This document shows positions 22,329-47,600 of a stretch of 64,000 bases of DNA, piece after piece. The first letter of the stretch is position 1; each line of letters starts with the position of its first letter. Below the pieces are notes generated by a model. The model saw only the letters and a program-made list of their open reading frames with translations, was not told where the DNA came from and ran no database searches. The DNA is from Flavobacterium pectinovorum (GTDB lineage Bacteria; Bacteroidota; Bacteroidia; Flavobacteriales; Flavobacteriaceae). Made by a program: the position numbers and the translations under genes. The stretch covers positions 1 to 64,000 of the forward strand of contig NZ_RCZH01000018.1 in the NCBI RefSeq assembly GCF_006438875.1. The letters are read 5' to 3'.

Positions 22329-23552
22329 CTACATATTATCGACAACTGCCTGGCCGAATTCAGAACATTTGATCAGAGTTGCCCCTTGCATCAAACGCTC
22401 AAAATCATACGTAACGATTTTATTACCGATAGCTCCTTTTAATCCCTTTACAATAAGATCTGCAGCATCCTGCCATCCCATATATTCGAGCATCATTACC
22501 CCGGAAAGGATTTCAGAAGACGGATTTACCTTATCAAGATCCTTATACTTAGGGGCTGTTCCGTGTGTTGCCTCAAAAATAGATACCCCTGTGGTATAAT
22601 TAATATTGGCTCCGGGCGCTATGCCTATTCCTCCCACTATGGCAGCCAGGGCATCTGAAATGTAATCCCCGTTCAGATTCAGCGTAGCAATCACATCATA
22701 CTGCTCAGGCCTTAAGATAATTTGTTGTAAAAACGCATCGGCTATTACATCTTTTATAATTACTTTATGTCCATACTTTTCCATAATAAGCCACGGGCCT
22801 CCCTCGTACTCTTTTGCCCCAAACTCCTCTCTGGCCAGCTGATAGCCCCATTCTTTAAATTGCCCTTCGGTAAATTTCATAATATTTCCTTTATGCACGA
22901 TGGTCACAGAATCCTTCCTGAAATCAATGGCATGCTTGAGAGCCGCTCTTATCAGGCGCTCACTTCCTTCTTTGGATACGGGTTTTATTCCAATGGATAC
23001 CGTATTGGGAAACCTAATGTTCTTAACACCCATCTCATCAATAAGAAAGTTCTTCACCTTTTCCAGTTCCGGTGTTCCTGCCATCCATTCGATACCAGCG
23101 TATATATCTTCGGTATTTTCCCTAAAAATAATCATATCTACTTTCTCAGGCGCTTTTACCGGAGAAGGTACTCCTTTGAACCATTTTACCGGTCTTACGC
23201 AGGCATATAAATCCAGTTTTTGTCTCAGGGCAACATTAAGTGATCGCATGCCGCCACCAACCGGTGTAGTTAAAGGGCCTTTAATGGCCACCAGAAATTC
23301 CTCAATATCTCTAACAGTCTGGTCCGGAAGCCAGTTTCCTGTTTTTTTAAAAGCTTTTTCACCGGCATATATTTCCTTCCACTGGATCTTTCTGCTGCTC
23401 CCGTACGCTTTTTGAACTGCAGCATCGAAAACCAATCTTGAAGCTTTCCAAATATCCGCCCCTATACCGTCTCCCTCAATAAAAGGAATTATAGGATGGG
23501 AAGGCACAACGAGCCTTCCGTTTTGAATACTTATTTTATTCTCATTCATCAT
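22329..23552 (-). CDS. icd: NADP-dependent isocitrate dehydrogenase, homodimeric type
   Basis: The enzyme oxidatively decarboxylates isocitrate to 2-oxoglutarate in the TCA cycle. I prefer M17 of the long frame (ATG at 23552; 23549 also possible) since [12 protein letters not shown] begins the family homology. The sequence follows E. coli Icd: [14 protein letters not shown], the isocitrate/phosphorylation loop [13 protein letters not shown] (Ser is the kinase target in E. coli), [14 protein letters not shown], and the cofactor region [12 protein letters not shown]. Length (about 407 aa) is normal. It is divergent from a Crp/Fnr gene, with a shared palindrome-bearing intergenic region, suggesting regulation by that protein. 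Confidence 0.95.
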
Positions 23553-23673
23553 ATTGTAAATTTTTGAAAAAAAGTTCCACGCAGACTTTCCTTGATTCAA
23601 CTTTATTTTAGTTATTTAACCTTCGCTATTGACTTACTTAATTAAACGTAAGAAGTACAGCTAATTTTTACAA

Positions 23674-23718
23674 ATATATAACATTTGTTATATATTTAAT
23701 TAATAAGTGTTATATTTG
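23674..23718 (+). promoter_or_regulatory. Palindromic operator and -7 element, icd/crp divergent region
   Basis: ATATATAACA-TT-TGTTATATAT (23674-23695) is a palindrome with perfect 10-bp arms, and a half-site GTGTTATAT follows at 23708-23716. TATATTTG (23711-23718) fits the -7 consensus for the Crp/Fnr gene, ending 4 bp before its ATG. The palindrome probably binds the Crp/Fnr protein or another dimeric regulator acting on both genes. Confidence 0.6.
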
Positions 23719-23722
23719 TTTT

Positions 23723-24418
23723 ATGAGAGATTTCTTTTCCCAATTTGATTTCCAGAGTGACCTGCTCTTTGAAGACCTAACGGAGTCAGAAAATCAGGCC
23801 GTTGAAAACACTATGGAATCCCTTGCTATAAAAAAAGGCAGTATGCTTTTTTATGAAGGTGGTATCCCTACTGGTATCTATCAGATAAAACAGGGTAAAG
23901 CCAAAAAATTCAAACGCGGTTTTACCGGTGATGAACAAATATTTTACATTTATACGCCCCAGGATGTATTAGGTTATCATGCCCTGCTTGGACAGGAACG
24001 ATATCAGGATTCCTGTGAGGCTCTCGAAGATTTAAAAGTAAATTTTATAGCTAAGGAAGATTTCCTCAGACTGCTTAGGGAAATTCCGGCCTTGCAGCAA
24101 AAACTCATTAAAAACATCGGCCACGAATTTGGTGTTCTGGCCAACATCATTGCTGTACTGGCACAAAAGAACCAGAATGCACGCCTGGCATTGTTTTTAC
24201 TGCTTTTAGAAAACAGATTCAATCGAAACTCCCCAACAGTAAAAGGTATCGACCTGACACGTGATGATCTGGCGAACCTTATCGGGACATCACAAGAAAG
24301 CCTGGGCAGAAGCCTCAAACAATTCAAGGAACAAGGCTGCATTGAAACTGACAAAAGAAATATTTATATAAAAGACAGCCTACAGCTCGAGCAGCTCCTG
24401 CAGGTCAAAATAGACTGA
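23723..24418 (+). CDS. Crp/Fnr family transcriptional regulator
   Basis: 231 residues. The cyclic-nucleotide-binding-like beta roll covers about 20-140 (KGSMLFYEGGIPTGIYQIKQ, then YTPQDVLGYHALL). A dimerisation helix precedes the winged HTH (DLTRDDLANLIGTSQESLGR). The recognition helix has E and R but G at the Ser position of the FNR E..SR motif, so its target probably differs from the FNR box. No Fe-S cysteine cluster is seen. It is divergent from icd with a strong palindrome between them. Confidence 0.92.
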   Translation: MRDFFSQFDFQSDLLFEDLTESENQAVENTMESLAIKKGSMLFYEGGIPTGIYQIKQGKAKKFKRGFTGDEQIFYIYTPQDVLGYHALLGQERYQDSCEALEDLKVNFIAKEDFLRLLREIPALQQKLIKNIGHEFGVLANIIAVLAQKNQNARLALFLLLLENRFNRNSPTVKGIDLTRDDLANLIGTSQESLGRSLKQFKEQGCIETDKRNIYIKDSLQLEQLLQVKID

Positions 24419-24456: not shown

Positions 24457-24500
24457 AAAAATGACGAAGATCACCCCAAAAGGTAATCTTCGTCATTTTT
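24457..24500 (+). terminator. Terminator after the Crp/Fnr gene
   Basis: AAAATGACGAAGAT and ATCTTCGTCATTTT pair perfectly over 14 bp around a CACCCCAAAAGGTA loop, followed by a T tract. Confidence 0.9.
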
Positions 24501-24550: not shown

Positions 24551-25192
24551 ATGGAGATGCAAGTAAAGAAAAAAAAAGTAGCTCTTATTGTGGCCCATCC
24601 TGATGATGAAACCCTATGGGCCGGAGGAATGCTGCTCAGTAATCCCCATTGGGAGTGCTTTATAGTATGCCTTTGCAGAAAACACGACCCTGATAGGGCT
24701 CCTAAATTTTATAAAGCGCTCGAAGTGCTGCAATGCACAGGTACGATGGGAAATCTGGACGACGGACCTGACCAGATACCACGCGATAAATCAGAAATCG
24801 CCCCTCTTGTACTGCAATTATTACCTGAAGGTCACTATGATCTCATCCTTACCCATAATCCGCTGGGAGAATATACAAGACATCTCAGACATGAAGAAAC
24901 AGGCCGCTCTGTAATAAGTCTCTGGGATGACGGAAAAATTTCATCCGGTGAGCTTCTCGTATTTGCTTACGAAGACCACAATAAACAGTATTATCCCAAG
25001 GCCATCCCTCTGGCTGATATTCAATTAACACTTCGGGCTGAACTCTGGCAAAAGAAATATGAAATTATGACCCGAATATACGGCTTTGCCCCCGATAGCT
25101 GGGAAGTACAAACAACTCCAAAGACAGAAGCATTCTGGAGAGTTTCCAGCAAAAAAGACGCCCGTAACTGGCTTAAAGAAACAAAACTATGA
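24551..25192 (+). CDS. PIG-L family deacetylase
   Basis: 213 residues with the metal-binding signature AHPDDETLWAGG near residue 16 and the third ligand region RHLRHEETG near 117. Members of this family (LmbE/PIG-L, MshB, BshB) remove N-acetyl groups from GlcNAc-type glycosides. There is no signal peptide, so it acts in the cytoplasm. It is the first gene of a three-gene operon; its stop overlaps the glycosyltransferase start by 4 bp (ATGA). That coupling suggests it acts on the product of that transferase. Confidence 0.93.
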   Translation: MEMQVKKKKVALIVAHPDDETLWAGGMLLSNPHWECFIVCLCRKHDPDRAPKFYKALEVLQCTGTMGNLDDGPDQIPRDKSEIAPLVLQLLPEGHYDLILTHNPLGEYTRHLRHEETGRSVISLWDDGKISSGELLVFAYEDHNKQYYPKAIPLADIQLTLRAELWQKKYEIMTRIYGFAPDSWEVQTTPKTEAFWRVSSKKDARNWLKETKL

Positions 25193-26331
25193 AAGTACTT
25201 GTATTATATGATTATCCACCCACACCCGGAGGTCTTGCGACCCAGGGGCACCTTCTCTATGAAGGCCTTTTGGCCAATGGCGTTGAAGCCCATGCGGTTC
25301 ATGTTGAATCAGCACTTGAAAAACAATGGTACTACGACTGGTTTAAACCTGATGTTGTGGTAGGTACCGGCTACTGGGGACACACGCCACAACTGGTGCT
25401 GCATCCTCAAAAATTCGGTATCACCGCTGTACCTTGGCTGGTGGCCGACGGCTATATTGCCAATTACCAAAATGTCCTGAACGGCTTGCCACTGATACTG
25501 GTAACTTCCAACTGGGTAAAGGAAATGTATGTAAGGGACGGCATTAGCAGTGATAACATTGAAGTTCTTCCAGTAGGCTGTGATACCGATGCCTTTAGGC
25601 CTTATGATGAAAATGATCCAAAAGTACTCGCAGCGCGCAAAGCTCTTGCAATAGCCCCTGAGGAGCAGCTTCTGCTGACCATTGGCGGGGATGCTGCCTC
25701 CAAAGGTGCCCGCGAGGTCATGGAAGCTTTAGCTATAGCGGGGAAAGAGCTGCCACCCTGGAAATATGTCTGCAAGGTCTGGCCCCAGCCCAGAACTGCC
25801 CTTCAGAGCAATCTGGATCAAAAGCTTGCCGAACAGCTCGGGATTAGCAATAACGTGATATTCCAAACCAGTATCATATCCAGAAATTTCATCCCCTATA
25901 TGTTAAATGCCTGCGATATCTATGCAGCCCCATCAAGGCTCGAAGGATTTGGAATGCCTCAGGTGGAAGCAGGCGCCTGCGGTAAACCTGTAATTGGAAT
26001 AAAGGCAATGGGAATGCTCGACACCCTTATAGACAACCAGACTGCGTGCCTGGCGGGTATCGGACAAAAAATAGTAGTCAATGAAGTAACCCTGGGCTCT
26101 GAATCAGGCTTTGAGGAAAACAGGCGTGTTGTCTTTGATGAACCAAGAACAGTAGACTACCGCGCCAATGTAGCGGATATCAAAGATGCTCTTATCAGGT
26201 TAATGAACAGTAAGGACCTGCGCGGGCAGATGGGAACCGCTGGGCGAAAACGTGCAGTTGAAAATTTCGACTACAGGATTGTGGCAGCGAAATTTATAAA
26301 AATCATCAATGAAAGACTCCAAATATATTAA
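25189..26331 (+). CDS. GT4-type glycosyltransferase
   Basis: 380 residues with the GT-B fold. The N-terminus MKVLVLYDYPPTPGGLATQ has the Gly-rich acceptor loop. The C-terminal nucleotide-sugar site shows APSRLEGFGMPQVEAGACG, the E.FG.P..E motif of family 4. It transfers a sugar from a nucleotide donor with retention. It has the same pairing with a PIG-L deacetylase as BshA/BshB and MshA/MshB in low-molecular-weight thiol synthesis, but it may make another glycoside. The third gene starts 12 bp downstream. Confidence 0.92.
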   Translation: MKVLVLYDYPPTPGGLATQGHLLYEGLLANGVEAHAVHVESALEKQWYYDWFKPDVVVGTGYWGHTPQLVLHPQKFGITAVPWLVADGYIANYQNVLNGLPLILVTSNWVKEMYVRDGISSDNIEVLPVGCDTDAFRPYDENDPKVLAARKALAIAPEEQLLLTIGGDAASKGAREVMEALAIAGKELPPWKYVCKVWPQPRTALQSNLDQKLAEQLGISNNVIFQTSIISRNFIPYMLNACDIYAAPSRLEGFGMPQVEAGACGKPVIGIKAMGMLDTLIDNQTACLAGIGQKIVVNEVTLGSESGFEENRRVVFDEPRTVDYRANVADIKDALIRLMNSKDLRGQMGTAGRKRAVENFDYRIVAAKFIKIINERLQIY

Positions 26332-26343
26332 ATTCCACAGCTC

Positions 26344-27504
26344 ATGGACAACAGAAACTGGACAGAAATAGAACAAGCAAAAAGTGCGGCACTGCAAGTA
26401 CTGCTACACAATGTAAAAGGTCCCTTTGAAGGGCTTCCCAGAACTGCAGCATGGGGATATCCCGAGCCTTATACGCGCGATTTAATGATCAGTATCCTTG
26501 GTGTTGCCGTATCCGAAAATGAAGAATTAATAAGTGCGATGCAGAAAACACTTCAGGTGCTTTCTGAAAATCAGTCCCTAAGGGGAAACATTCCTTCATT
26601 AGTCCATGACCCTGACAATAGAGGAGCAAGTGATACCACACCCTTATTTTTACTGGCAGTGGGCATTTTCAGAAAATTAACCGGGGAAAAGGATTTTCTG
26701 CAAGAGGCAGTCCAAAAAGCATTAACCTGGATGGAATACCAGAGTCCTTCTGATGATTATCTTGTGGCCCAGCAGCCTACAAGTGACTGGCGCGACGAGC
26801 AATGGGTATTGGGCTATGGACTGTATGTTAACACCTTAACCTATAGTTACCTTCAGATACTAGGGCATACAGAAAGAGCAGTCGGACTGCAAAACGCAAT
26901 GGAACATTTTACCATTACCACCCCCACAAATCCTACACATCTGCATGAAGGGATGCTGATAAAACAAAAACCCTATTATGCCTTATGGTCCTACAAAATA
27001 TACAACAGTGAAAGATTTGACCTCTTAGGCAACAGCCTGGCTGTTCTCTCAGGTCTCGCTTCTGAGCAGAGAGCAGATCATATTGTGAAATGGGTAGAAA
27101 ATCAATGTGAGATTATGATAAAGAATAAAGATCTGGCCTTAAAACTGGCCCCGAATTTCTTCCCTTATATTCTGCCTGAAGATCCCGACTGGATCCCCAG
27201 ATATGAGCAGTATAATCTTCCCGGGGATTATCACAATGGAGGTATATGGCCTTTCATTTCAGCGCTTCACATAGCGGCTCTGGTTCGGGCGGGAAAACCT
27301 GAACTGGCAAGGGAAAAACTATTCCTGCTTACTGATTTGATTAAAAAATCAAGAAACAAAGATCTCGATTATGGTTTTAATGAATGGTACAAAGCCCAGG
27401 ACGGCGAGCCTATGGGCCAGGACTGGCAGAGCTGGTCGGCTTCCCTATACCTCTATGCAGTGACCTGTGTAGAGACCAATACTACACCTTATTTTGTGGT
27501 GTGA
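26344..27504 (+). CDS. Six-hairpin glycosidase (amylo-1,6-glucosidase / GH100-like)
   Basis: 386 residues without signal peptide. The pattern of an (alpha/alpha)6 barrel is clear: GYPEPYTRDLMISIL near 38, WRDEQWVLGYGLYVNTL near 150, PGDYHNGGIWPFISAL near 300 and GQDWQSWSASLYLYA near 363. These are the acidic blocks of glycogen-debranching/neutral-invertase type clan GH enzymes. It probably hydrolyses or phosphorolyses an intracellular glycoside. Third gene of the PIG-L/GT4/GH operon; the substrate may be the product of the first two enzymes, or a common saccharide. Confidence 0.82.
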   Translation: MDNRNWTEIEQAKSAALQVLLHNVKGPFEGLPRTAAWGYPEPYTRDLMISILGVAVSENEELISAMQKTLQVLSENQSLRGNIPSLVHDPDNRGASDTTPLFLLAVGIFRKLTGEKDFLQEAVQKALTWMEYQSPSDDYLVAQQPTSDWRDEQWVLGYGLYVNTLTYSYLQILGHTERAVGLQNAMEHFTITTPTNPTHLHEGMLIKQKPYYALWSYKIYNSERFDLLGNSLAVLSGLASEQRADHIVKWVENQCEIMIKNKDLALKLAPNFFPYILPEDPDWIPRYEQYNLPGDYHNGGIWPFISALHIAALVRAGKPELAREKLFLLTDLIKKSRNKDLDYGFNEWYKAQDGEPMGQDWQSWSASLYLYAVTCVETNTTPYFVV

Positions 27505-27791: not shown

Positions 27792-28844
27792 TTAATTTTT
27801 CATCTTGCTTATTTTCATGTAATCCAGAATTTTCAGTTGGCTGCCTTTTTTCTCTATTAATCCTTCATTTCTAAACTCGGTTAAGGTCCTGCTCACGGTT
27901 TCGGAAGCAGTTCCTGACATCGCCGCCAGATTATCCCTCGTTACATTGATACTATCCCCTTTTGCGGCTTCTTCCTGACGAAAGAGTCTGAGCAGGGATT
28001 CTGCAATACGCTTTCTGACCGACTGATAGGCCAATTGCAGCAAATGTGTGTCTTTGTTCCTGATTTCATTCGAGAGGATTTTAATAAATTTTTCCGCTAC
28101 ATCAGGATATAATTTGAGTAATTCTTCGAGCTGTTCTTTTGGAAAAAAACAGACCTGACTGTCTTCCAGTGCTGTTGCAGTATCGGTATAAGTTTCATCA
28201 GAGAGAATTGTACTTACCCCTAAAAAATCATTGGCATGATACATACCGGTCATCAGTTCACGCCCGTCTTCAGACATCTTGACCGTTTTGATCTTACCTG
28301 AGATTACCAAATAAAGACCAATAGCGCGATCCCCTTCATAGTGAATAATCTGGTTTTTCTTAAAGGGCCTGTAAATATGCTCGTCTATCATCTTTTTCAA
28401 CTCAGAAAGACCTTCCCTGTCCCCTACTAAACTCCCAAGCTGTCCCAGGGACTGACTGTAAAAATCCCTTTCTGAATTCTTTTTGTTGAGCCTGCTTTCA
28501 ATGGCGTGTAAAAGTTCCATATCATCAAAAGGCTTGGTCAGGTAATCGTCCGCTCCCATCTCCATGGCTTTACGCAGATCCGGCCTTTCGGATTTTGCAG
28601 TGATAAAAATAAAGGGAATGGTACTTGTTTTTGGATTTTTATTAAGCATATACAATACACCGTAACCGTCCAGCTCGGGCATCATAATATCACATAAAAT
28701 AATATCGGGCAGGTTGATAACAGCAGATTCAACGCCTACTTTACCATTATTGGCCTGATAAACGGTATAACCTGCCAAAGTAAGGATTTCAGAAATGTTT
28801 TCCCTAATGTCATTATGGTCTTCAATAATTAGTACTTTGCTCAT
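27792..28844 (-). CDS. Response regulator fused to a Crp/Fnr-type activator
   Basis: 350 residues. A receiver domain (1-125) has EDH near 8-10, phospho-acceptor D52 in LCDIMMPELDG, T in FITAKSE and K in LTKPFDD. A Crp-like beta roll (150-260, EGDRAIGLYLVISGKIK) and a winged HTH (285-345) follow. The recognition helix GTASETVSRTL carries the E..SR triad of FNR/FixK, so TTGAT-type boxes are the likely targets. It overlaps the FixL-like kinase by 4 bp, so the two form a cognate pair. This fuses the roles of FixJ and FixK in one protein. Confidence 0.93.
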   Translation of the reverse strand: MSKVLIIEDHNDIRENISEILTLAGYTVYQANNGKVGVESAVINLPDIILCDIMMPELDGYGVLYMLNKNPKTSTIPFIFITAKSERPDLRKAMEMGADDYLTKPFDDMELLHAIESRLNKKNSERDFYSQSLGQLGSLVGDREGLSELKKMIDEHIYRPFKKNQIIHYEGDRAIGLYLVISGKIKTVKMSEDGRELMTGMYHANDFLGVSTILSDETYTDTATALEDSQVCFFPKEQLEELLKLYPDVAEKFIKILSNEIRNKDTHLLQLAYQSVRKRIAESLLRLFRQEEAAKGDSINVTRDNLAAMSGTASETVSRTLTEFRNEGLIEKKGSQLKILDYMKISKMKN

Positions 28845-30043
28845 GATATGGGAAATGTTAGGGTGAATAATGTTCCTTCTTGTTCATTGCTTTTAAAATC
28901 TGCTGTTCCCTTCATAAGTGAAACGTAACGGCTCACTATATTCAGACCAAGCCCGGTCCCGGGGATACTGCCGGTGTTGTGTGCCCTGAAAAAAGCCTGA
29001 AACAAATGTTTTTGTTCTTCCAAAGGAATACCAATTCCATCATCGTGAACTGAAATAATATAATCTGCATCATTAATTTCTGTTGTAAAATCAATACAGC
29101 AGCTGTCTCCGGAATACTTTATGGCATTACCAATTAAATTAATGGCACAATTCTTTAACAAATTAGCATCGAGGTATATCATCGTTGGCACGCCAATATG
29201 TTTGAAGACGATATTTTGGCTGGGTTTGGCCAAAAGCTGCATTTCTTCAGTTATTTCTTCACCGAATTTAACCAGGTCAAAACAAGTGAATTCAGGCTTC
29301 ATCTTGCCTATTTCCAATTTTTCAACATACAGAAAGTCATTGAGTATCGCCGTTAGACTCTTTACCGAATTTTTAATCTTGGCAATATGTTTACCGATAG
29401 GTTCACTTTCAAAAGGTATAGCGTATTTTTCAATGAGTGAGGCTGATAATTGCACGGTACTGAGCGGCGTGCGAAATTCATGGGAAGCCATCGATAAAAA
29501 CCGGTTTTTTAATTTACTGAGCTCTTTTTCCTTTTCCAGGGAAATACTCACTTTTTCTTTTGCTTTTTCTAAAGCAAAAATAGTATCGTTGAGCGATTTT
29601 GTCCGCTCCTCGACAAGTTCTTCCAGATGAGATGCATAATCCTTATACTTTTCCTCATCTATTTTCTGCTTGGACAGATCATGAATAAAACCGGCATAAA
29701 TAGTCCTGCCTGAATATTTTACCTCACTAACCCCAAGTTTCATTGGAAACAGATCACCGCCTTTACGCATTCCTATCAGGTCACGACCTACACCAATTAT
29801 ACTGGCTTTTCTTGTTATTTTGTACTTACTCAAATAGTTATTATGCCTTTCCCTATCCGGTGATGGCATAAGCATGGAAATGTTTTTACCTATAACTTCC
29901 TCTTGCTGATAACCAAAAAGTATACAGCCTGCCGGATTAATAGTTTCGATAGTACCAATATCGTCTATGGTAATGATGCCATCCAAAGCATTTTGTACAA
30001 GAGCGTATAACAGTGCGGCATTGTCCATCATCAAATCGATCAA
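28841..30043 (-). CDS. FixL-like PAS histidine kinase (probable heme oxygen sensor)
   Basis: 400 residues, soluble. The PAS domain (10-125) reads ISMLMPSPDRERHNNYLSKY and IIGVGRDLIG. In rhizobial FixL the heme ligand His and the oxygen-stabilising Arg are 20 residues apart in the same motifs; here H67 and R87 keep that spacing. A coiled coil (130-175) leads to HisKA with H188 in SMASHEFRTPLS, then HATPase with N-box NLIGNAIKY, DDGIGI and GTGLGLNI. Low oxygen would release inhibition and allow phosphorylation of the neighbouring receiver-Crp protein. Heme binding is inferred from sequence. Confidence 0.9.
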   Translation of the reverse strand: MIDLMMDNAALLYALVQNALDGIITIDDIGTIETINPAGCILFGYQQEEVIGKNISMLMPSPDRERHNNYLSKYKITRKASIIGVGRDLIGMRKGGDLFPMKLGVSEVKYSGRTIYAGFIHDLSKQKIDEEKYKDYASHLEELVEERTKSLNDTIFALEKAKEKVSISLEKEKELSKLKNRFLSMASHEFRTPLSTVQLSASLIEKYAIPFESEPIGKHIAKIKNSVKSLTAILNDFLYVEKLEIGKMKPEFTCFDLVKFGEEITEEMQLLAKPSQNIVFKHIGVPTMIYLDANLLKNCAINLIGNAIKYSGDSCCIDFTTEINDADYIISVHDDGIGIPLEEQKHLFQAFFRAHNTGSIPGTGLGLNIVSRYVSLMKGTADFKSNEQEGTLFTLTFPIS

Positions 30044-30313
30044 ATTATGATGATCCTTATAAAGGTCGGCTATTTAAAAATGGGAAGTTACATTCTGCCT
30101 GAATTTCACAGTATAATTAACACATTACCAATCATTTAACAACAAAAAACACTATTAAGCCGATTTTGACTGCTTTATATACTATTCAAGGAATTTAAAT
30201 TACCCCTACTCAATGGCAGTCGCAAAATGATATACATCATTCTTTATACTATTTTGGCTCATTTCGGCTTAAGTCATTATATCGCTTCTTTGCTATGAAA
30301 ACCTAAAACAAAT

Positions 30314-30715
30314 TTGATGCAATACAACTCAAGACAACTATGCATGCTGCTTATTAAAGAGGAATCTAAAACAACAGATGCATTTCAGACCGCTTTGAGC
30401 AATTTAGAATCTAAACATTCTATGACCGTATTCAAAGATAGCAAGTTATGTATGGAACAATTAAAAGAAGGATCGAGTCTGGCTACGCCAATGGTATTTT
30501 TTAATTTAAATGATGACGGATACAAATCTTTAAGCGAAATAGTATCAATCAGAAATGATAAACAAAATAAGAATCTTTCCATTGTGGTATACGATCCTAA
30601 AGCAGCACTATGTGATGAAGATACCTTCATAGCAGGCGCCAATATCTATATTAAAAAATCAGGCGATGCTACAACGCTCAAAAAAGTGCTAAAAAAAGTA
30701 ATTAATATGGACTAG
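30314..30715 (+). CDS. Degenerate receiver-like protein, 133 aa
   Basis: The secondary-structure pattern is that of a receiver domain: CMLLIKEES for the first strand, TPMVFFNLNDDG where the phospho-acceptor should be, SIVVYDPKA at the Thr strand and ANIYIKKSGD at the Lys strand. The acidic pair is replaced by KEE and the acceptor Asp by Asn, while Lys remains. It is therefore probably a pseudo-receiver that signals without phosphorylation. It is divergent from the FixL-like kinase gene (270 bp apart) and may belong to the same regulon; that is inference. Confidence 0.7.
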   Translation: MMQYNSRQLCMLLIKEESKTTDAFQTALSNLESKHSMTVFKDSKLCMEQLKEGSSLATPMVFFNLNDDGYKSLSEIVSIRNDKQNKNLSIVVYDPKAALCDEDTFIAGANIYIKKSGDATTLKKVLKKVINMD

Positions 30716-30917
30716 CATTGCGAGTCAGGTAAATTTAATAGGGAGACCTTTTTCGTATCAGTTTAATTGCAGTTTATTTTTTATTATAAAAGTGCCCTAC
30801 ATCATTTTTATTGCTGATGCCTGTCATTTCCAGTTCCTTGCTTCCGCCTCAACTTTGTACCAGTAAAAAAGAATACAATTTAAGCTTTCAGGTGAATTTA
30901 AACTTAAAGGAACAATA

Positions 30918-31605
30918 ATGAAATTTTACAAAGAGATGTTCTAGATGCCATAAAATGGGAACCCCACTTAAATGCAGCCCAAATTGAAGTCACTGCAAAT
31001 AATGGCATCATTACTTTAAAAGGTATTGTTGATTTACCTGCAAAAAAAATAAAAGCCAAAAATACGGCAAAACAGGTTCCCGGGGTTTTGGAAGTTTTGG
31101 AAAACATTCAGGTAAAAATCAGTAGCCGGGAACAAAAAAATGACTTTGATATCGCCCAGGCAGTCCTAAATACTTTTAGATGGAACTGGAACACATTAAA
31201 CGACAGTATAGAGGTAAGGTAGAAAATGGACACGTAACCCTTAGCGGAGAATTAGAATGGCATTACCAGAAAGAGGCTGCCATAAAAGCTGTAACCAATT
31301 TAATTGGAGTAAAAGGAGTGGACAATAATATTGTTATTGATTCAAGACTTAGTCCCCCTATAAATAAAGAAATTATCCAACGGGCGCTAAAAAACCATGT
31401 CGAAATTGATACGGTAAGCATTACAGTAGAAGTTTCCAGAAATGAGGTAACTCTTGAAGGCGCAGTGGATTCCCGATATCAAAAAGAACTGGCTGAAAAA
31501 ATCACATGGAAAGCTCCCGGAGTGCGAGATATAAAAAACAATCTCAAAGTAATTCAAGAACATGCAGAGAAAACACTGGATGTTTTTTATAAAATGACTC
31601 ATTAA
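30918..31605 (+). pseudogene. Triple-BON-domain protein, frameshifted
   Basis: Three BON domains can be read: LQRDVLDAIKWEPHL to VLENIQVKI, then AVLNTFRWNWNTL to NNIVIDSRL, then ALKNHVEIDTVSI to IKNNLKVI. The ATG at 30918 is out of frame by one base with the first domain (ATGAAATTTTAC would need one more A). A second missing base near 31214 breaks SIEV from KVENGHVTL. Only the part from 31180 (141 aa) is a free-standing ORF. BON proteins such as OsmY are periplasmic and protect membranes; no signal peptide is seen here. Two frameshifts indicate decay or sequence error. Confidence 0.72.
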
Positions 31606-31615
31606 AACTATCAAT

Positions 31616-32156
31616 ATGAAAAACACAAATACGTTAGTCGCCTTTTATGCTACCTGCTATTAAAAAGCTCGAAAAAAGCGGTTACGATATGAAAAAGCTA
31701 TCAATCATAGGAACAGACTACCATAGTGATGAAACTGTAACAGGTTACTACACGGTGGGAGATCGCATGAAAAAATGGGGAAGTTTTGGAGCCTATTGGG
31801 GAGGCTTCTGGGGTTTACTATTTGGATCTGCTTTCTTTTTTATTCCCAGACTTGGACCGCTGCTTGTTGCCGGGCCGCTTGTTTCACCTATTATTGGGGC
31901 GCTCGAAGGTGCAACCTTACTGGGTGGTACCAGTGTTATTGCAGCTGCCTTAGTTAGTTTGGGCATTCCAAACGATGAAGTGCTAAAATATGAAACAGAA
32001 ATTAAAGCGGGCAAATTTATGCTCTTGGCACACGGAAACAAAATCAGCATTGAAAATACCCGAAAAATGCTGGGGCTTCATATCCCTAAAGAAAACGGTA
32101 TGAAAGAAGAACACTTTCTTTCTGTTGAGCAGATTGAAGCCGCTGCAGTGCAATAA
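31616..32156 (+). pseudogene. YflT/DUF1269-like stress membrane protein, N-terminus broken
   Basis: An ATG at 31616 starts MKNTNTLVAFYAT, typical of the general-stress YflT-like proteins, but stops after 15 codons. The body (IKKLEKSGYDMKKLSIIG, DETVTGYYTVGDRMKKWG, then Gly-rich membrane hairpin GGFWGLLFGSAFFFIP) is in another frame starting at 31647. A small deletion, plus a frameshift, has removed the EAEAA-type linker. The 169-aa downstream ORF may still be made from its own ATG. It lies in a stress cluster with BON genes. Confidence 0.7.
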
Positions 32157-32190
32157 GTAAGAAAACATTAAAACTTATACCTTAAAAAAA

Positions 32191-32589
32191 ATGAAAACTA
32201 TAAATCAATTAGGCATTTACTTAGATCATGCCTCCGCCAATTTAATCGATTTTACAGGTAATGATAAAGAGCCTCAAACTATAGTCTCTGAATTTGATAT
32301 TCAGGACAAACATGAAACCCTACAAAGAAGCGAAAGTGAAATGCACCATAAAGAACAGGATAAACAAAGGGCATACTTTAAGAAAATTGCGACTCTCGCC
32401 ATTGGCTATAATGAACTCGTCTTATTTGGTCCCACTACGGCAAAAACGGAATTACTGCACTTTTTGCAAAAAGACAACAGTTTTGGAAAAATTAAAATAG
32501 AAGCCGAAAATACCGCTAAAATGAACCTTCAGGAGCAAGAGGTTTTTGTTCGCGAACATTTTAAAAAGTTTGACTCTAAAAATAGTTGA
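32191..32589 (+). CDS. Small conserved stress-region protein, 132 aa
   Basis: The protein begins INQLGIYLDHASANLIDF and has LVLFGPTTAKTELLHFL at the centre and EQEVFVREHFKKF at the end. The layout is reminiscent of the last domain of bacterial archaeo-eukaryotic release-factor-like (baeRF) proteins, which share the LGIYLD...GP...K.EL pattern. Function is not established. It follows the YflT-like gene by 34 bp on the same strand, so co-expression is likely. Confidence 0.65.
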   Translation: MKTINQLGIYLDHASANLIDFTGNDKEPQTIVSEFDIQDKHETLQRSESEMHHKEQDKQRAYFKKIATLAIGYNELVLFGPTTAKTELLHFLQKDNSFGKIKIEAENTAKMNLQEQEVFVREHFKKFDSKNS

Positions 32590-32636: not shown

Positions 32637-35600
32637 CTAAATTGGCAATATGATATGAAATTCTGCGCCAATATTTTCTTCGGCTTTAGAAAAAATAATT
32701 CCCTTATGATTTTCTACAATTTTTTTTCCAATTGATAATCCAATACCTGTACCGATATAGATTTCATTATTGTGAAGCCTTTGAAAAATAGTGAAAATTT
32801 TATTTTCATATTCCTGATTAAATCCTATTCCATTATCTTTAACTATGATCTCACAATATGCTAAACCTGGATCCAGATCCGGATGTGTTTTAACTTGTTT
32901 TAAAGTCAGTTTTTTGGAGCTTATCTCTATTTTAGAAATTGAATTGTCTTTTTTATAAAACTTAATAGCGTTACTGATTAAATTATAAAAAAGCTGATTC
33001 ATTTGCAGCGAAATTGCATTTATAACCGGCAAATGCCCCACTTTTATTTTAAAATTGCGTTCCTGAATCAGCAGCTCAAAATCAATTAAAATATTGTCGA
33101 TAACCATATTCAAATCAGTCGCTGCAAATTGCCTGTCGGGATTATCAAGGTATGAATAAGCCAGTAAATCTTTAATAAGCGTATTCATCCTTATGGATGA
33201 TTTACTGATTTTTTCAAGCAGCAAATGAGCCGGATCAGAAATTTTTTCCTCCATTTGCAAAAGCCTGCTGATAAACATCAGGATTTTACGCAGCGGTTCC
33301 TGAAGATCGTGGCTGGCCACATATGCGTATTCCTGTAATTGATCATTGGCAGTGCGCAGATTTTTGACAGAGTTTTCTAATTCTTTGTTGGATGTGAGCA
33401 GGTCTACTGTACGCTGCTGAACTTTAACCTCTAAACCATCAGACATTGCCTGTAATTTCTTTTCAATATTCCTGCGTTCGGTAATATCTTCAATAGCCAG
33501 CAGAATTAATTGTTTTTTACTAGTTTCGTACGTGACTTGTCTGGCATTTAATAGTAGGATACTTTCGCCATAAGGCAAAAGATTTACTGATATCTCATAA
33601 TCGTCAAGCTGCGTTTTTTGCTGAAGTATTTTTTCAAGCATTGCACGCATTTGAATATCTCCAAAAAGATGATTTTGGATTTCATATATCAGCCTGTCTG
33701 CGGCTTCTTCTTTGGTAATATTATATTTTTTAGAAAATGCCCTGTTAATGTTTTTTATTCTAAGCTTGCTATCCAAAACTACTATCGGTTCACGAAGCGT
33801 TGCAACTATTGCATCTGTATAATTTTTTGCAATATTAATTTCCTGCTGCTTGTTTAAAAGTTCCTGATTAATCTGCGATAGTTCTTCATTGCTGGATTGT
33901 AATTCTTCTTTAGAAGTTTCCAATTCTTCATTCAGGCTTTGCAATTCTTCGCTTCCACTTAATAATTCCTCATTGGCACTCTGCAGTTCTTCGTTAGAAG
34001 CTTCCTGTTCTTCACTAATCGCATTTACGTCATTGTGTATTTTTTCCAATTCTTTTTCAAGCTGTGCGATCCTTTTTAAATTAACATCATTGCGGATTTC
34101 CTCAGCCGTCATATTGTTTAAGGATACTTCTGGTTGGATAGTGTTGGTTTTATAAAACAATATTAGAAAATAGGGCTCGGATGTATCAGGAAGCGGCTGT
34201 ACTTCAATTGTAACTTCACTTATAACTTCTTTCTTTTTAACCTGTATTCCTTCTTTTATCACAAGAGATCCTGTTTCTTTAGATTTGTGCAAAGCATTAC
34301 GAAGTTCAAAAGCCAATCCTTCACGAACCATTTTCAGCAAATTAAAAGTGGGTTTGCCCTGTGAAAATTTAATAAAATCAGTAATATCTCCAATAATATG
34401 CAAAATATCCACCTGTTCATTTACTATGATACTCGCTGGTCTGTAATCAGATAGCAAAATTGATTCTGCACTTTTTATAAAATCTTCTTTGATAATTTCT
34501 TTTTTAGGAAGTTCTGATTTAAAACTTTTCAACTTGTCAGTCGCTCCCGATCCCCAGCGAGAATGTGCGGATCTTGCTGAAACCTCTTTTCTGGTGTATA
34601 TTTTTCCGGCTTTATCAAAAGGCTGAAAAAGTTCACCGGCTGGAATTGCAGTTTCAGATTTTCCTAAAAGTAAAAAACCGTTTTCTTTTAAGGCATAATG
34701 AAATGTACTCAAAGATTTTTTCTGTAAAAATGTATCCATGTAAATAAAAACATTCCTACAGGTAATCAAGTCCATTCTGACAAATGGAGGATCCGTGAGG
34801 AAATTATGAACGGCAAAAACGCATAAATCCCTAATTTGCCGATTAATAGTATAACCATTGGTACTGGATGTAAAATATTTGGAAAGGGTAGCTTCAGAAA
34901 CATTACGCATTTGAGATTTTCTGTAAAATCCAGCCCTTGCCTTTGCAATAGCAACTTCTGAAATATCTGAGGCAAAAATCTGGATTTCTTTTCCCTGAAG
35001 GTTTTCTCCCAAAAACTCATGAAGCGCAATCGCCAGAGTGTACGCTTCTTCACCGGTAGAACATCCTGCAATCCAGATCCGTATTGCATTTCCTTCCGGT
35101 ACCCTGGCCACTAATAAAGGGAAAACTTTTTCCTTCATCATCTGAAAAATTTTAACATCCCTGAAAAACTCCGTTACTGGTATAAGCAGATCATTAAATA
35201 AGTCTTCAGAGGCCAATTTATCACCTCTCAAAACTTTAAGGTAATCCCTAAGATTAATGATTTTATTTAATGCCATTCTTCTGGCAATACGTCGGCGTAT
35301 GGTAGTTTGTTTATAATAGGCAAAATCAACCCCGCTGTGATGATGTAGAATTTTAATAATTTCATGAAATACTGCTTCATCATTAAGCTCATTATCTTCG
35401 CCAGAAATCGCTTTTGCTTTACAAAGCTCAATTAATTTGGCCACTATTTTCACTGGTGATAATACGTAATCAACAACTCCGGCATTAATTGCATTTTGCG
35501 GCATTTCATTATAAGAGGCATCCATATCCTGGGCAAAAGTTATGCCTCCGTGTTCTTTGATCAATCCCAGGCCAATTGTTCCGTCAGATCCATTTCCGGA

Positions 35601-36008
35601 GAGCAATACGCCACAGGCCAGATTAAGGTGAACTTCGGCCAATGAATTAAAAAATATATCTATTGCCTGATTTTTTGTGTCCTTAATACGTGGACTCAGT
35701 TTGAGTACTCCATCAAAAGAAGTCAATATTTTATTTTCCGGAATAACATAAATAATATTGGGAGCCAAGTGAACATCATCTGTAATTTCAATAATTGGTA
35801 TTCTGGCCACACGAGAAAGCAGTTCTGTAAGTATACTGTCATGCAGTGGATGTAAATGCTGTACAATTACATAAGCCATCTGGGAGTCATCAGGAATAGT
35901 ATCAATAAACTGGGTAAAAGCTTCAAGCCCTCCTGCCGAAGCTCCAATGCCAACAATAGGAAAATCCTGGCGTGTAGCCTTAGGCAGAATGTTTTTTTTA
36001 TGGTACAT
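32637..36008 (-). CDS. CheB-CheR-PAS-histidine kinase fusion, copy 1
   Basis: 1,123 residues. The N-terminus (15-200) is a CheB methylesterase with S24 in GIGASAGG, H51 in VQHLHPLHDS and Asp in GNGSDGTIG. CheR follows (210-480), with the SAM loop IWIAGCSTGEEAYTLAIA. A long coiled coil of NEEL/SNEEL repeats (640-740) leads to a PAS domain, a second coiled coil and HisKA (VASHDLQEPLRKI), then HATPase (DNGIGF, GTGIGLSIGKK). Such fusions are thought to link adaptation-type chemistry with kinase output; no chemoreceptors are nearby. A response regulator is encoded just upstream but is broken. A second copy lies at 44693-48058. Confidence 0.95.
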   Translation of the reverse strand: MYHKKNILPKATRQDFPIVGIGASAGGLEAFTQFIDTIPDDSQMAYVIVQHLHPLHDSILTELLSRVARIPIIEITDDVHLAPNIIYVIPENKILTSFDGVLKLSPRIKDTKNQAIDIFFNSLAEVHLNLACGVLLSGNGSDGTIGLGLIKEHGGITFAQDMDASYNEMPQNAINAGVVDYVLSPVKIVAKLIELCKAKAISGEDNELNDEAVFHEIIKILHHHSGVDFAYYKQTTIRRRIARRMALNKIINLRDYLKVLRGDKLASEDLFNDLLIPVTEFFRDVKIFQMMKEKVFPLLVARVPEGNAIRIWIAGCSTGEEAYTLAIALHEFLGENLQGKEIQIFASDISEVAIAKARAGFYRKSQMRNVSEATLSKYFTSSTNGYTINRQIRDLCVFAVHNFLTDPPFVRMDLITCRNVFIYMDTFLQKKSLSTFHYALKENGFLLLGKSETAIPAGELFQPFDKAGKIYTRKEVSARSAHSRWGSGATDKLKSFKSELPKKEIIKEDFIKSAESILLSDYRPASIIVNEQVDILHIIGDITDFIKFSQGKPTFNLLKMVREGLAFELRNALHKSKETGSLVIKEGIQVKKKEVISEVTIEVQPLPDTSEPYFLILFYKTNTIQPEVSLNNMTAEEIRNDVNLKRIAQLEKELEKIHNDVNAISEEQEASNEELQSANEELLSGSEELQSLNEELETSKEELQSSNEELSQINQELLNKQQEINIAKNYTDAIVATLREPIVVLDSKLRIKNINRAFSKKYNITKEEAADRLIYEIQNHLFGDIQMRAMLEKILQQKTQLDDYEISVNLLPYGESILLLNARQVTYETSKKQLILLAIEDITERRNIEKKLQAMSDGLEVKVQQRTVDLLTSNKELENSVKNLRTANDQLQEYAYVASHDLQEPLRKILMFISRLLQMEEKISDPAHLLLEKISKSSIRMNTLIKDLLAYSYLDNPDRQFAATDLNMVIDNILIDFELLIQERNFKIKVGHLPVINAISLQMNQLFYNLISNAIKFYKKDNSISKIEISSKKLTLKQVKTHPDLDPGLAYCEIIVKDNGIGFNQEYENKIFTIFQRLHNNEIYIGTGIGLSIGKKIVENHKGIIFSKAEENIGAEFHIILPI

Positions 36009-36664: not shown

Positions 36665-37296
36665 CTACAAAAATTCATTTTCAACTTGCCAGACTCCAGC
36701 TGTATGCCAGGCTATCCTTTCTGCTTCTTCCTTATGAAAAAGAGAACTTACAATACCACTAAGGAATATCGTTTTGCCATCAACTCTAACTTTAATATTA
36801 TCAATATCCATAATCCAGCTGCGTTTTAGTGCTTTCTCCACAATCTCCTTCTCCAGCTGGTTTTTTATTTCAGCTTCAATCACTATTTTATCAATAACAC
36901 CTTTTACACCTCTCATATAACGGATAACATTATCTGCAGTCTTCCTTTGGAAATTCCAATGTAAAATTCCCTCAAGGGTTACCCATCCGTCTTCAACTGT
37001 AACTTTTAACCTGTGGTTGGGTACACCCCATTTTTCTTCTAATGCTTTAATAACTGAACTGGCAATATCTTTATCGTTTCTTATTGATGAAAAAAAAAGG
37101 TTTACCTTTATATCATCTATAGTAGCCTTGACCCCTGAGATATCCTTAACAATATGTTCAGCTTCCTTTTTTTGATTATAATTATCGACAGTTCCTGCCA
37201 GAGTAAAATCCCTTGCTGAACACTAACTTCTATTTTATTAGATTCTAAAATAGGTTCCTATTTTATAGCTTCCATAACTTCTTCACCTAAAAACAT
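36665..37296 (-). pseudogene. Second triple-BON protein, decayed
   Basis: From the ATG at 37296 the frame reads MFLGEEVMEAIK, then TAG where Trp is expected, then EPILESNKIEVSVQQG. One missing base after that shifts into DFTLAGTVDNYNQKKEAE. Two further BON units follow (GVPNHRLKVTVEDGWVTLEG and RSWIMDIDNIKVRVDG). It is paralogous to the gene at 30918. The last 83 codons form an isolated ORF. One nonsense codon and one frameshift mark it as a pseudogene. Confidence 0.75.
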
Positions 37297-37567
37297 CGTT
37301 ACTTTTTTTCATTAGTTTTTTTCATTATTATATTTCAACAGTAAGCATTGATATACTTGTCTTTGCAAATATAATAATCCCTATATCGATAGGTAAAATT
37401 GAAACATATTGATCCGAAAAAAAATGATTTCTATCAATCAAAAAAGTGATAAGAAACATTTAATACATTGAAGCGAGACCCAGATTAGCGTATTGTAATG
37501 ACTAAATTTAAATTAGGTTCTAAAGTCCCCTTTAGGAATCTACCTTTTTGAGGGAATTAAAGCTGTT

Positions 37568-44692: not shown

Positions 44693-47600
44693 TTAGATAG
44701 CCAATATAATATGAAATTCAGCGCCAACATTTTCTTCTGCTTTCGAAAAAATAATCCCCTTATGGTTTTCTACAATTTTTTTTCCAATCGAAAGTCCAAT
44801 ACCGGTACCACTGTAGATTTCACTAGTATGTAGTCTTTGGAAAATAGTAAAAATTTTATTTTCATATTGCTTATCAAAACCGATTCCATTGTCTTTAATG
44901 ACAATTTTATAATAACCTAAACTTGAATTCAGGGTTGGATATTTTTTAATTTGTGCTAAAGTAAGTTTGCGTGAAGTAATTTCTATTTTACAAATTGAAT
45001 CATCTGTTTTGCAAAACTTAAGAGCATTACTTATAAGATTATAAAAAAGCTGATTCATTTGTAATGCAACAGCTGTAACAATTGGTAATTTCCCCATTTT
45101 TATTTCAACCTTATTATCTTCTATGAAGAGCTCAAAATCGACAAGAATGTTTGCTACAATGACATTTAAATCTGTTTTTACAAATTGTTTTTCAGGATTA
45201 TTGAGATAGGAATAAGTTAATAAATCTTTAATAAGTGTATTCATCCTTGTAGATGATTTACTGATTTTTTCCAGTAAAATTAGGGCTTCATCAGAAATTT
45301 TTTCGTTCATTCCTAAAAGCCTGCTGATAAACATTAATATCTTACGCAATGGCTCCTGTAAATCATGACTCGCCACATAAGCGTATTCCTGTAATTGAAC
45401 ATTGGCACCGTGCAAATTTTTAACAGAACTTTCAAGTTCTGTATTGGCATTTAGTAAATCGGCAGTACGTTCCTGAACTTTGGTCTCAAAACCATCCGAC
45501 AGCACCTGCAGTCTTTTTTCTATGATTCTTCGTTCTGTTATATCTTCAATAGCCAACAGAATTAATTGTTCTTTGCTAGTTTCATTAGTTACTTGTCTGG
45601 CATTAAGCAGCATGATACTCTCTCCGTAAGGTAAAAGATTAACCGATATTTGATAATCGTCCAGCTGGGTTTTCTCGGGAAGTACTTTTTCAAGCATGGC
45701 CCGCATAGGAACATTATCAAAAAGATGATTCTGAATTTCATAAATCAGCTTGCCTGTAGCTTCATCCTTGGCAATATTATATTTTTTAGAGAAAGCCCTG
45801 TTGATATTTTTTATTCTTAAATTGGTGTCTAACACTACTATAGGTTCCCTAAGAGTAGCTACTATGGCCTCTGTATAATTTTTGGAAATATTAATCTCTT
45901 GTTGCTTATTTAAAAGTTCCTGATTGATTTGTAAAAGCTCTTCATTACTAGACTGTAATTCTTCTTTGGAAGTTTCCAGTTCCTCGTTCAAACTTTGTAA
46001 CTCTTCACTGCCACTCAATAATTCTTCATTGGCGCTCTGCAATTCTTCGTTAAATGCCTCGTGGTCTTCACTGATAGCGTTAACGTCATCATGTATTTTG
46101 GCCAATTCTTTTTCAAGCTGTGCTATTCTTTTTAAGTAGATATTGTCCTGCAATTCTTCAGACGTGAATTTGTTTGAGGGTAAATTATCTTTATCAATTA
46201 TACTTTTGTAAAATAACACTAAAAAATAAGGCTCTTCCGTATCCTCTAATCGCTGTAATTCTATGGTAATTTCTTCTGTAACACCTTTACTTTTAATCTG
46301 AATTCTTTCCTTTTTTATAGGTAAATCTGCTTCTTTGACTTTATGCCAGGCATTACGAAGCTCGAAAGCCAATCCTTCCCTTGCCATTTTCAATAAATTG
46401 AAAGTGGGTTTTCCAGTAGAAAGCTCAATAAATTCAGCTATTGATCCGTTAATATGTACAATATCCATTTGCTCATTAACAATAACACTGGCCGGAGTGT
46501 ATTTGGAAAGCAATAATGACTCAGCACTTTTTCTAAAATCTTCTTTGATAATCTCTTTTCTTTGAATATCAGATTTAAAACTTTTTAACTTGCCATTGGC
46601 TCCTGAACCAGAATGTACAAATCTACCCGAAACCTGTTTACGGATATAAATTTTGCCTGCTTTATCAAATGACTGAAAAAGCTCAGCGGCAGGAACAGCT
46701 GTTTCTGATTTTCCTAACAATAAAAAGCCGTTTTCTTTTAAGGCATAATGAAAGGTTGTAAGTGATTTTTTTTGTAAAAATGAGTCCATATAAATAAAGA
46801 CATTTCTACAGGTAATTAAATCCATTTTAGCAAAAGGAGGATCATTTAAAAAATTATGAACTGCGAAAACACACAAATCCCTAATTTGTCTTTTAATAGT
46901 ATAGCCATTAGTATTTGAGGTAAAATACTTTGAAAGAGTAGTTTCAGAAACATTCCGCATTTGGGATTTCCTGTAAAATCCTATTCTTGCTTTTACAATA
47001 GCCACTTCTGAAATATCAGAAGCAAAAATCTGGATTTCTTTTCCCTGAAGATTTTCGCCTAAAAATTCATGAATTGCAATAGCTAACGTATAAGCTTCTT
47101 CGCCGGTAGAACAGCCCGCTATCCAAACTCGTATTGTATTACCTTCAGGTATTCTGCTGGTTATTATTGGGAAAACTTTTTCCTTTATGACTTGAAATAT
47201 TTTACTATCTCTAAAAAATTCTGTCACCGGTATAAGCATATCGTTAAACAAATCTTCTGATGCCAATTTGTCTCCTCGTAATAATTTAAGATAATCCCTA
47301 AGGCTAACAATTTTGCTTAATGCCATCCTTCTGGCAATGCGACGATGAATAGTGGTTTGTTTATAATATGTAAAATCGACTCCGCTTTGCTGATGTAATA
47401 TGTTAATAATTTCCTGAAATAATGCTTCATCATTTGAATCATTTTCTTCACTAATTATATATTTCGATTTTGAAATCTTTATCAATTTCTCCACTATTTT
47501 TGATGGTGACATCACATAATCAACCACTCCGGCATTAATTGCATTTTGAGGCATTTCAATATAAAGAGCATCAATATCCTGCGCAAAAGTAATACCTCCA

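Follow-up and report, generated by a model that had tools for sequence, protein, structure and literature searches.

The window, by which we mean the whole 64,000-nt stretch of Flavobacterium pectinovorum DNA that was analysed, carries two minus-strand genes whose frames overlap by 4 bp (28841-28844). The upstream frame (28841-30043, 400 codons) encodes a FixL-like histidine kinase in which Pfam recognizes PAS, HisKA and HATPase_c domains and which aligns with FixL. The downstream frame (27792-28844) encodes a response regulator of 350 amino acids with Response_reg, cNMP_binding and HTH_Crp_2 domains, an assignment based on Pfam and on a structural model. An earlier reading made from the letters of the DNA only (the sequence-only reading) had given these coordinates, the strand and the overlap, together with H67 and R87 of the kinase and D52 of the regulator, and all of these were found as described. 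Most alignments of the kinase with its homologues begin at residue 6, so that ATG 30028 is a likelier start than TTG 30043 and is probably the true one; H67 and R87 become H62 and R82 if counted from this ATG. That the two proteins form a cognate two-component pair with a Crp-type output is nearly certain.

A scan of genome contigs gave at least 577 relatives of the regulator, and the best 80 loci, all from Bacteroidota, were fetched for comparison. The kinase is present at 76 of these 80 loci and lies directly upstream on the same strand in 75, with gaps between the two genes of -32 to +31 bp in the adjacent cases. It is absent from L016, L039, L042 and L045 and located elsewhere in L041, and its frame is split in two in L073. 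In a sample of the phylum, relatives of the regulator (E <= 1e-60) occur in 56 of 395 genomes, only 14 of which, the host included, have a regulator of at least 54% identity, the rest being mostly sisters at 37-49%. The family of genome G099 has relatives (E <= 1e-80, 43-65% identity) in 42 of 71 genomes, and the host genus has them (E <= 1e-60) in 20 of 150. These counts from sampled genomes indicate that the close regulator type is widespread but patchy. A sister receiver-Crp family (L106-L121 except L108) has an E..IR recognition helix in 14 of its 15 members, L110 having E..SR; its PAS pocket is mostly different, and the RTGAY box described below is absent within about 4 kb of its genes.

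Sensor and regulator domains

The PAS domain of the kinase spans residues 12-121 (29681-30010, minus strand), as delimited by Pfam and by an AlphaFold model used with Foldseek. Among the best 60 of 71 matches, its best solved relative is FixL (E 1.9e-25), to which it aligns without gaps over 115 residues, and DosP follows. As judged from sequence, the resemblance to FixL is far beyond chance. H67 (codon 29843-29845, minus strand) aligns with the proximal heme ligand of FixL and R87 (codon 29783-29785, minus strand) with the distal Arg, both in the FixL alignment and across the family. The model of the domain, computed from 86 sequences, has a mean pLDDT of 89.9 and a pTM of 0.81. Within the best 50 Foldseek matches to this model, ranks 1-32 are heme-PAS structures (FixL, DosP/Ec DOS or FG214) and the first LOV domain is found at rank 33. 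Thus, the FixL-type pocket proposed in the sequence-only reading, with its His and Arg 20 residues apart, is supported by a gapless alignment that is conserved across the family and by the heme-PAS structures that lead the ranking of the closest folds.

To describe the pocket across the family, 76 homologous kinases were aligned, of which 75 reach the pocket positions. All 75 of these have the distal Arg, and 74 have the ligand His. Residues equivalent to Ile209 and Ile210 of SmFixL are Ile in 71 and 73 of the 75 kinases, whereas Arg occupies the positions of FixL R200/R206 in 52 kinases and His that of H214 in 47. One report ties Ile209/Ile210 of SmFixL to kinase activity and R200 to a heme propionate (PMC10765370). 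At the positions where Arg and His prevail in the family, the window kinase carries K73 and S81 instead.

A larger set of partner kinases was also inspected. His and Arg are present together in 91 of 93 close partners; the other two have Tyr for His, and one of them also has Lys for Arg. These natural variants are the partner kinases of L102 and L124, L102 being the one with Lys, and they would be useful natural controls. Distant partners keep both residues in 9 of 13 cases; three more retain the His but have F, N or M in place of the Arg, which means that conservation of the His reaches further than that of the complete pocket. The His/Arg combination was seen in 3 of 19 other PAS stretches of the loci, a set that contains partner-kinase fragments (L073 and L011), and in 1 of 8 distinct aligned PAS stretches of the host genome, a set that contains the window kinase itself. 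Other kinases found in the host genome match the query only from residue 115, outside the PAS part.

These comparisons strongly suggest that the PAS domain carries heme, and heme binding coupled to oxygen sensing is probable. A different view, which we consider unlikely, is that the kinase is not an O2 sensor, its PAS domain having retained the fold and the His of the FixL family without binding heme, or else responding to redox, NO or CO. The replacement of Arg in the three distant partners and the K73 and S81 residues of the window kinase would be compatible with such a domain, but the close family keeps the FixL pocket positions (His, Arg, Ile-Ile, Leu and Val/Ile), and ccoNO is among the genes behind the box described below.

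In the regulator, the phospho-acceptor D52 (codon 28689-28691, minus strand), T82 and K104 are invariant in all 76 aligned homologues, as expected of a response regulator. The HTH_Crp_2 domain (27813-28013, minus strand; Pfam and alignment) carries an ETVSR recognition helix, in agreement with the E..SR helix that had been read from the sequence. The presence of a domain with the cNMP-binding fold, an HTH_Crp domain and an E..(S/G)R helix places the protein in the Crp/Fnr superfamily, and its full-length model (pLDDT 82.8, pTM 0.55) has Crp/Fnr proteins among its best 50 Foldseek ranks. FixJ proper combines a receiver with a LuxR/NarL-type HTH output. The regulator is not of this kind, its output being cNMP_binding plus HTH_Crp_2, and FixJ was not found among its receiver matches in either the best 60 of 288 chains or the best 25 of 109 NCBIfam models; PleD, PhoB and similar proteins are the best receiver matches among those 60 chains. 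Against the NCBIfam models for FixL (NF041777) and FixK (NF050806), the kinase scores 136.5 of 850 bits and the regulator 80.1 of 300 bits, both below the curated cut-offs. The phrase 'FixL-FixJ-FixK in two proteins', by which the pair had been characterized, therefore expresses an analogy of wiring and not a demonstrated descent, and by these comparisons the pair does not belong to FixL, FixJ or FixK proper.

The Fe-S sensor of FNR depends on four cluster-ligand cysteines, and Crp contacts cAMP through an Arg-Ser motif. The only cysteines of the regulator are Cys51 and Cys232, which do not make up a cluster ligand set, and FNR-type Fe-S sensing by this protein was ruled out for this reason. 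The cAMP-contacting Arg-Ser was not found in the corresponding stretch. Because the protein has neither the cluster set of FNR nor the Arg-Ser of Crp, phosphorylation is most likely what activates it.

A palindrome shared by the loci

When the intergenic DNA of the 80 loci was searched for inverted repeats, with no motif assumed beforehand, the top dyads were AAGTG-N8-CACTT, ATGAT-N4-ATCAT and AATGA-N6-TCATT. The merged box, RTGAY-N4-RTCAY, has 214 matches in 136 kb of non-coding DNA versus 55 in 1.38 Mb of coding DNA, and ten other spacers (0-3 and 5-10) give only 1-17 non-coding matches. Upstream of the kinase, the box is present in 50 of the 73 loci with enough upstream DNA (0-5 for other spacers), and the strict form is missing from the other 23 kinase promoters. 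The box was found and counted in the same 80 related loci, and therefore sequences outside these loci were examined as well. The site named in the sequence-only reading, TTGATnnnnATCAA, is more frequent in the host genome than in the reversed control (30 versus 5). It is absent from the 40 top dyads listed for the loci and was for this reason ruled out as the site of the kinase/receiver-Crp system, the site common to the loci being RTGAY-N4-RTCAY, often in tandem. Its position outside these 40 dyads suggests that TTGATnnnnATCAA may serve another Fnr-type protein.

The box has a preferred promoter geometry. The 336 box-gene pairs include 88 in which a second box, counted when at least 8 of 10 positions match, follows the first at exactly 22 bp, versus 0-8 at 29 other shifts. 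The -7 element TAnnTTTG gave 62 matches, which are offset from the box by 51 in 27 cases and by 29 in 13, and most of the offset-51 group have a degenerate second box at the 22-bp position. The exact element is absent from most of the 336 pairs. According to a study of F. psychrophilum, the TAnnTTTG element is at -12 to -5 (PMC9723704), from which we infer that tandem boxes would be centred at about -63.5 (distal) and -41.5 (proximal). Centring at -41.5 relative to the -7 element is seen in a minority of sites, those with offsets 29 and 51. Position -41.5 is the classical class II position of Crp/Fnr activators. The box preferentially lies 45-89 bp from the start codon (160 of 380).

Genes next to boxes were clustered, and one representative per cluster was tested with Pfam. 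Since a box between divergent genes was assigned to each of the two, some of the genes listed here are neighbours rather than targets. The most frequent are genes for USP (19 loci), ccoNO/FixO (15), BON (11) and YkuD (9) proteins, followed by YceI, OsmC and YflT (6 each), PEP synthase-like and Hsp20 proteins (5 each), alcohol dehydrogenase (4), phosphoketolase, acetate kinase, cation ATPase and hemerythrin/ScdA (3 each), and acetyl-CoA hydrolase and fumarase (2 each). Pfam gave no match for two box-adjacent clusters, one of 12 loci (117 aa) and one of 11 loci (606 aa). The 606-aa protein (L044:6896-8713) and its relatives at the 11 loci are encoded beside a box and divergently from the kinase, and they match neither Pfam nor NCBIfam models.

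So many of these genes (USP, BON, YflT, YkuD, OsmC and Hsp20) are of the stress type that the pair could be taken for an ordinary general-stress two-component system whose resemblance to FixL is incidental, a view that the patchy occurrence of the system within the genus (20 of 150 genomes) would also suit. We regard this as very improbable, since the ccoNO, phosphoketolase, acetate kinase, acetyl-CoA hydrolase and fumarase genes beside the box make up a low-oxygen profile and not a general one.

When the window was scored with the promoter grammar, five matches of at least 21 were obtained (shuffled mean 0.05), at three places only, all of them within 13 kb around the pair. Two tandem boxes on the plus strand (24461-24474 and 24483-24496) precede plus-strand genes at 24551-27504, which encode PIG-L-like, glycosyltransferase-like (by its G444 counterpart) and glycosidase-like proteins. 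A second tandem on the plus strand (30792-30805 and 30814-30827), with the -7 element CAACTTTG, stands in front of plus-strand genes at 31180-32589 for a BON protein, a YflT-domain protein and a 132-aa protein without a Pfam match. The third (37424-37459, minus strand) is upstream of a BON gene (36665 onward). In addition, a single strict box, ATGATATACATCAT (30227-30240), is situated between the kinase gene and a divergent gene for a small receiver-like protein. The BON genes at 30918-31605 (at its 5' end) and 36665-37299 look frame-broken by eye, and their relatives are intact three-BON proteins (e.g. L041:19431-20096 and L161:15163-15819).

The small oxygen regulon that had been proposed for this neighbourhood gains support from the local tandem promoters around the pair. 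It does not extend to icd (22329-23600) and a second Crp/Fnr gene (23723-24418), both of which were confirmed as real genes. The window scan found no grammar site scoring at least 19 upstream of either gene, the nearest being a site of 17.5 points at 23678, 78 bp upstream of icd, and the two genes were ruled out as predicted members.

The same arrangement is more extensive in a near relative, genome G444, whose regulator is 95% identical to that of the window. The 48 kb around its pair contain 13 grammar matches of at least 22 (null 0) at 11 places, one of which is inside a doubtful frame. The first genes behind these sites include those for PIG-L, MlaE, YflT, histidine-phosphatase-family and DUF6629 proteins, two BON genes, one of them followed by a USP gene, and two small genes that match no Pfam family, of which one has an aldehyde dehydrogenase gene behind it. 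All eight tandem sites of the G444 genome with at most two mismatches lie within 33 kb around the pair; with at most three mismatches, 12 of 26 are located at C39:132715-173733 around the regulator gene, the reversed control for the genome being 16. These positions suggest that in this lineage the predicted regulon is centred on an island around its regulator. Within the island (L160-L161), the -7 element is often CAnnTTTG and not TAnnTTTG, perhaps making the promoters activator-dependent.

Candidate readers of the palindrome

Several observations connect the box with the regulator of the pair. A box is found within about 4 kb at 17 of 21 loci with an E..SR-type regulator versus 0 of 15 sister loci, and in genomes G519 and G418 a tandem site with no mismatch lies at most 200 bp from the 3' end of the regulator gene. 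In the host genus, 44 genomes were chosen, 22 with a regulator of at least 54% identity and 22 from those without a match, leaving out three members with 41% regulators (G154, G430 and G487). Tandem sites over control number 296/217 in the 22 genomes with the close regulator versus 195/204 in the 22 without it (p 0.003).

Results from the family of G099 are less specific. The pooled presence of a regulator is associated with box count (p 4.6e-4; 0.029 versus the 13 absent genomes of at least 3 Mb). Genomes with a close regulator (at least 53% identity) differ from those with none (p 0.007; 0.068 versus the 13 genomes of at least 3 Mb), and so do genomes with a more distant one (p 0.001). Because the distant group differs as well, the test in this family does not single out the close regulator. 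Moreover, box-rich genomes without the regulator exist (85/22, 52/7 and 48/3), and one genome with it is box-poor (29/61). These cases make it very likely that the site is also used by other Crp/Fnr proteins. In the host genome itself, both the single box (85 versus 65 in the reversed control) and the tandem box (15 versus 11 in the control) are hardly enriched. A single box, ATGATAATTATCAT, precedes the cco operon of the host; it is found 49 bp before the ATG of a ccoS-like frame (L129 position 1297), and about 3 kb from this operon there is another Crp/Fnr-like gene.

The box-rich genomes without the regulator, the unspecific counts in the G099 family and the arrangement at the ccoS operon would all be accommodated if the palindromes belonged to another Crp/Fnr protein, such as the product of 23723-24418, and the receiver-Crp protein read something else. 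We judge this distinctly unlikely, given that the promoter of the pair itself carries the box in most loci, that the sister loci have none, and that G519 and G418 have perfect tandem sites next to the regulator gene. It is likely, from the distribution of the sites, that the regulator of the pair reads the RTGAY-N4-RTCAY box.

Relation to known oxygen circuits

We are fairly confident that the pair constitutes a two-protein low-oxygen switch whose regulator is a phosphorylation-gated analogue of FNR/FixK. At low O2, the heme-PAS kinase would lose its ligand and autophosphorylate, and the phosphate would then be passed to D52 of the receiver-Crp protein, where phosphorylation would do what a ligand or an Fe-S cluster does in the activation of other Crp/Fnr proteins. 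The Crp part would read RTGAY-N4-RTCAY sites, often paired at a distance of 22 bp and centred near -63.5 and -41.5, and would activate its own operon, genes for stress proteins (USP, BON and YflT) and for fermentation and, among relatives, those of the cbb3 oxidase. The wiring from kinase to receiver-Crp protein envisaged in the sequence-only reading gains support from the recurrence of the pair in many Bacteroidota and from the box grammar that surrounds it. Taken together, kinase, receiver-Crp protein and box point to a low-oxygen control circuit that recurs in many related bacteria.

A broader proposal, to which we give slightly better than even chances, is that Bacteroidota have an oxygen circuit of their own in which a heme-PAS kinase directly phosphorylates a Crp-type activator that binds as two dimers at -63.5 and -41.5, in which, for part of Flavobacterium, regulon and regulator move together as one island, and to which a few lineages have added a FixT-like feedback receiver. 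A Crp-type activator placed under phosphorylation, and not under a ligand or Fe-S cluster, would represent a simple evolutionary route and would dispense with one level of the cascade known from rhizobia. The literature searched, to whose scope most subscription papers did not belong, gave little on low-oxygen sensing in soil and freshwater Bacteroidota and yielded no description of the kinase/receiver-Crp pair. The cbb3 oxidase of F. psychrophilum is strongly induced under oxygen limitation, as reported in PMC9723704, in the main text of which the words FNR and Crp do not appear. The pair offers a testable sensor, a regulator and a predicted site with exact promoter geometry, and its candidate targets are the cbb3 oxidase and the stress and fermentation genes.

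By analogy, the pair would work like FixL together with a FixK that is itself a response regulator. It shares with the FixL-FixJ-FixK system of rhizobia and Caulobacter a FixL-type PAS kinase, a Crp/Fnr output with an E..SR helix and the cbb3 oxidase among the targets, which are predicted here. It differs in that there is no separate FixJ, the receiver being fused to the Crp module, in its occurrence in Bacteroidota, and in its RTGAY-N4-RTCAY box, often in 22-bp tandems and beside many stress genes. The DevR (DosR) system of Mycobacterium uses GAF heme sensors where a PAS domain is found here, and its dormancy regulon is rich in USP genes. DevR (PMC3029386) resembles the present regulator in that hypoxia leads to phosphorylation of the DNA-binding response regulator itself, but its output is NarL-type, whereas that of the pair is Crp. 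The hFixL-FxkR-FixK cascade of Rhizobium leguminosarum likewise combines a FixL-type kinase with a non-FixJ regulator; however, FxkR still induces FixK (PMC7888657), whereas here the response regulator itself is the Crp-type protein. The one-component regulators FNR, Anr and FixK have the Crp fold and the E..SR helix in common with the window regulator, which in contrast to them has no Fe-S ligand set and has an added N-terminal receiver. FNR, Anr and FixK act from the class II position, which the predicted proximal box at -41.5 would match.

The gene divergent from the kinase (30314-30715, plus strand) had been called a pseudo-receiver. Its product is receiver-like, although it matches no Pfam (E 0.01) or NCBIfam (0.001) model, and its homologue in L001 gives a CheY match at E 0.09 only. 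FixT of Caulobacter is also a small single receiver-like protein (PMC7078487), and the gene of the window protein shares a box-containing promoter region with the FixL-type kinase gene next to it. A role as a FixT-like feedback protein is speculative, the likeness being one of analogy only, with the protein or a relative adjoining the kinase in only 6 of 80 loci. Elsewhere in the window, two CheB-CheR-PAS-kinase proteins of 1123 aa (32637-36008) and 1121 aa (44693-48058) are 78% identical, and each of their genes adjoins a small receiver gene, revealing a duplication whose copies start 12 kb apart.
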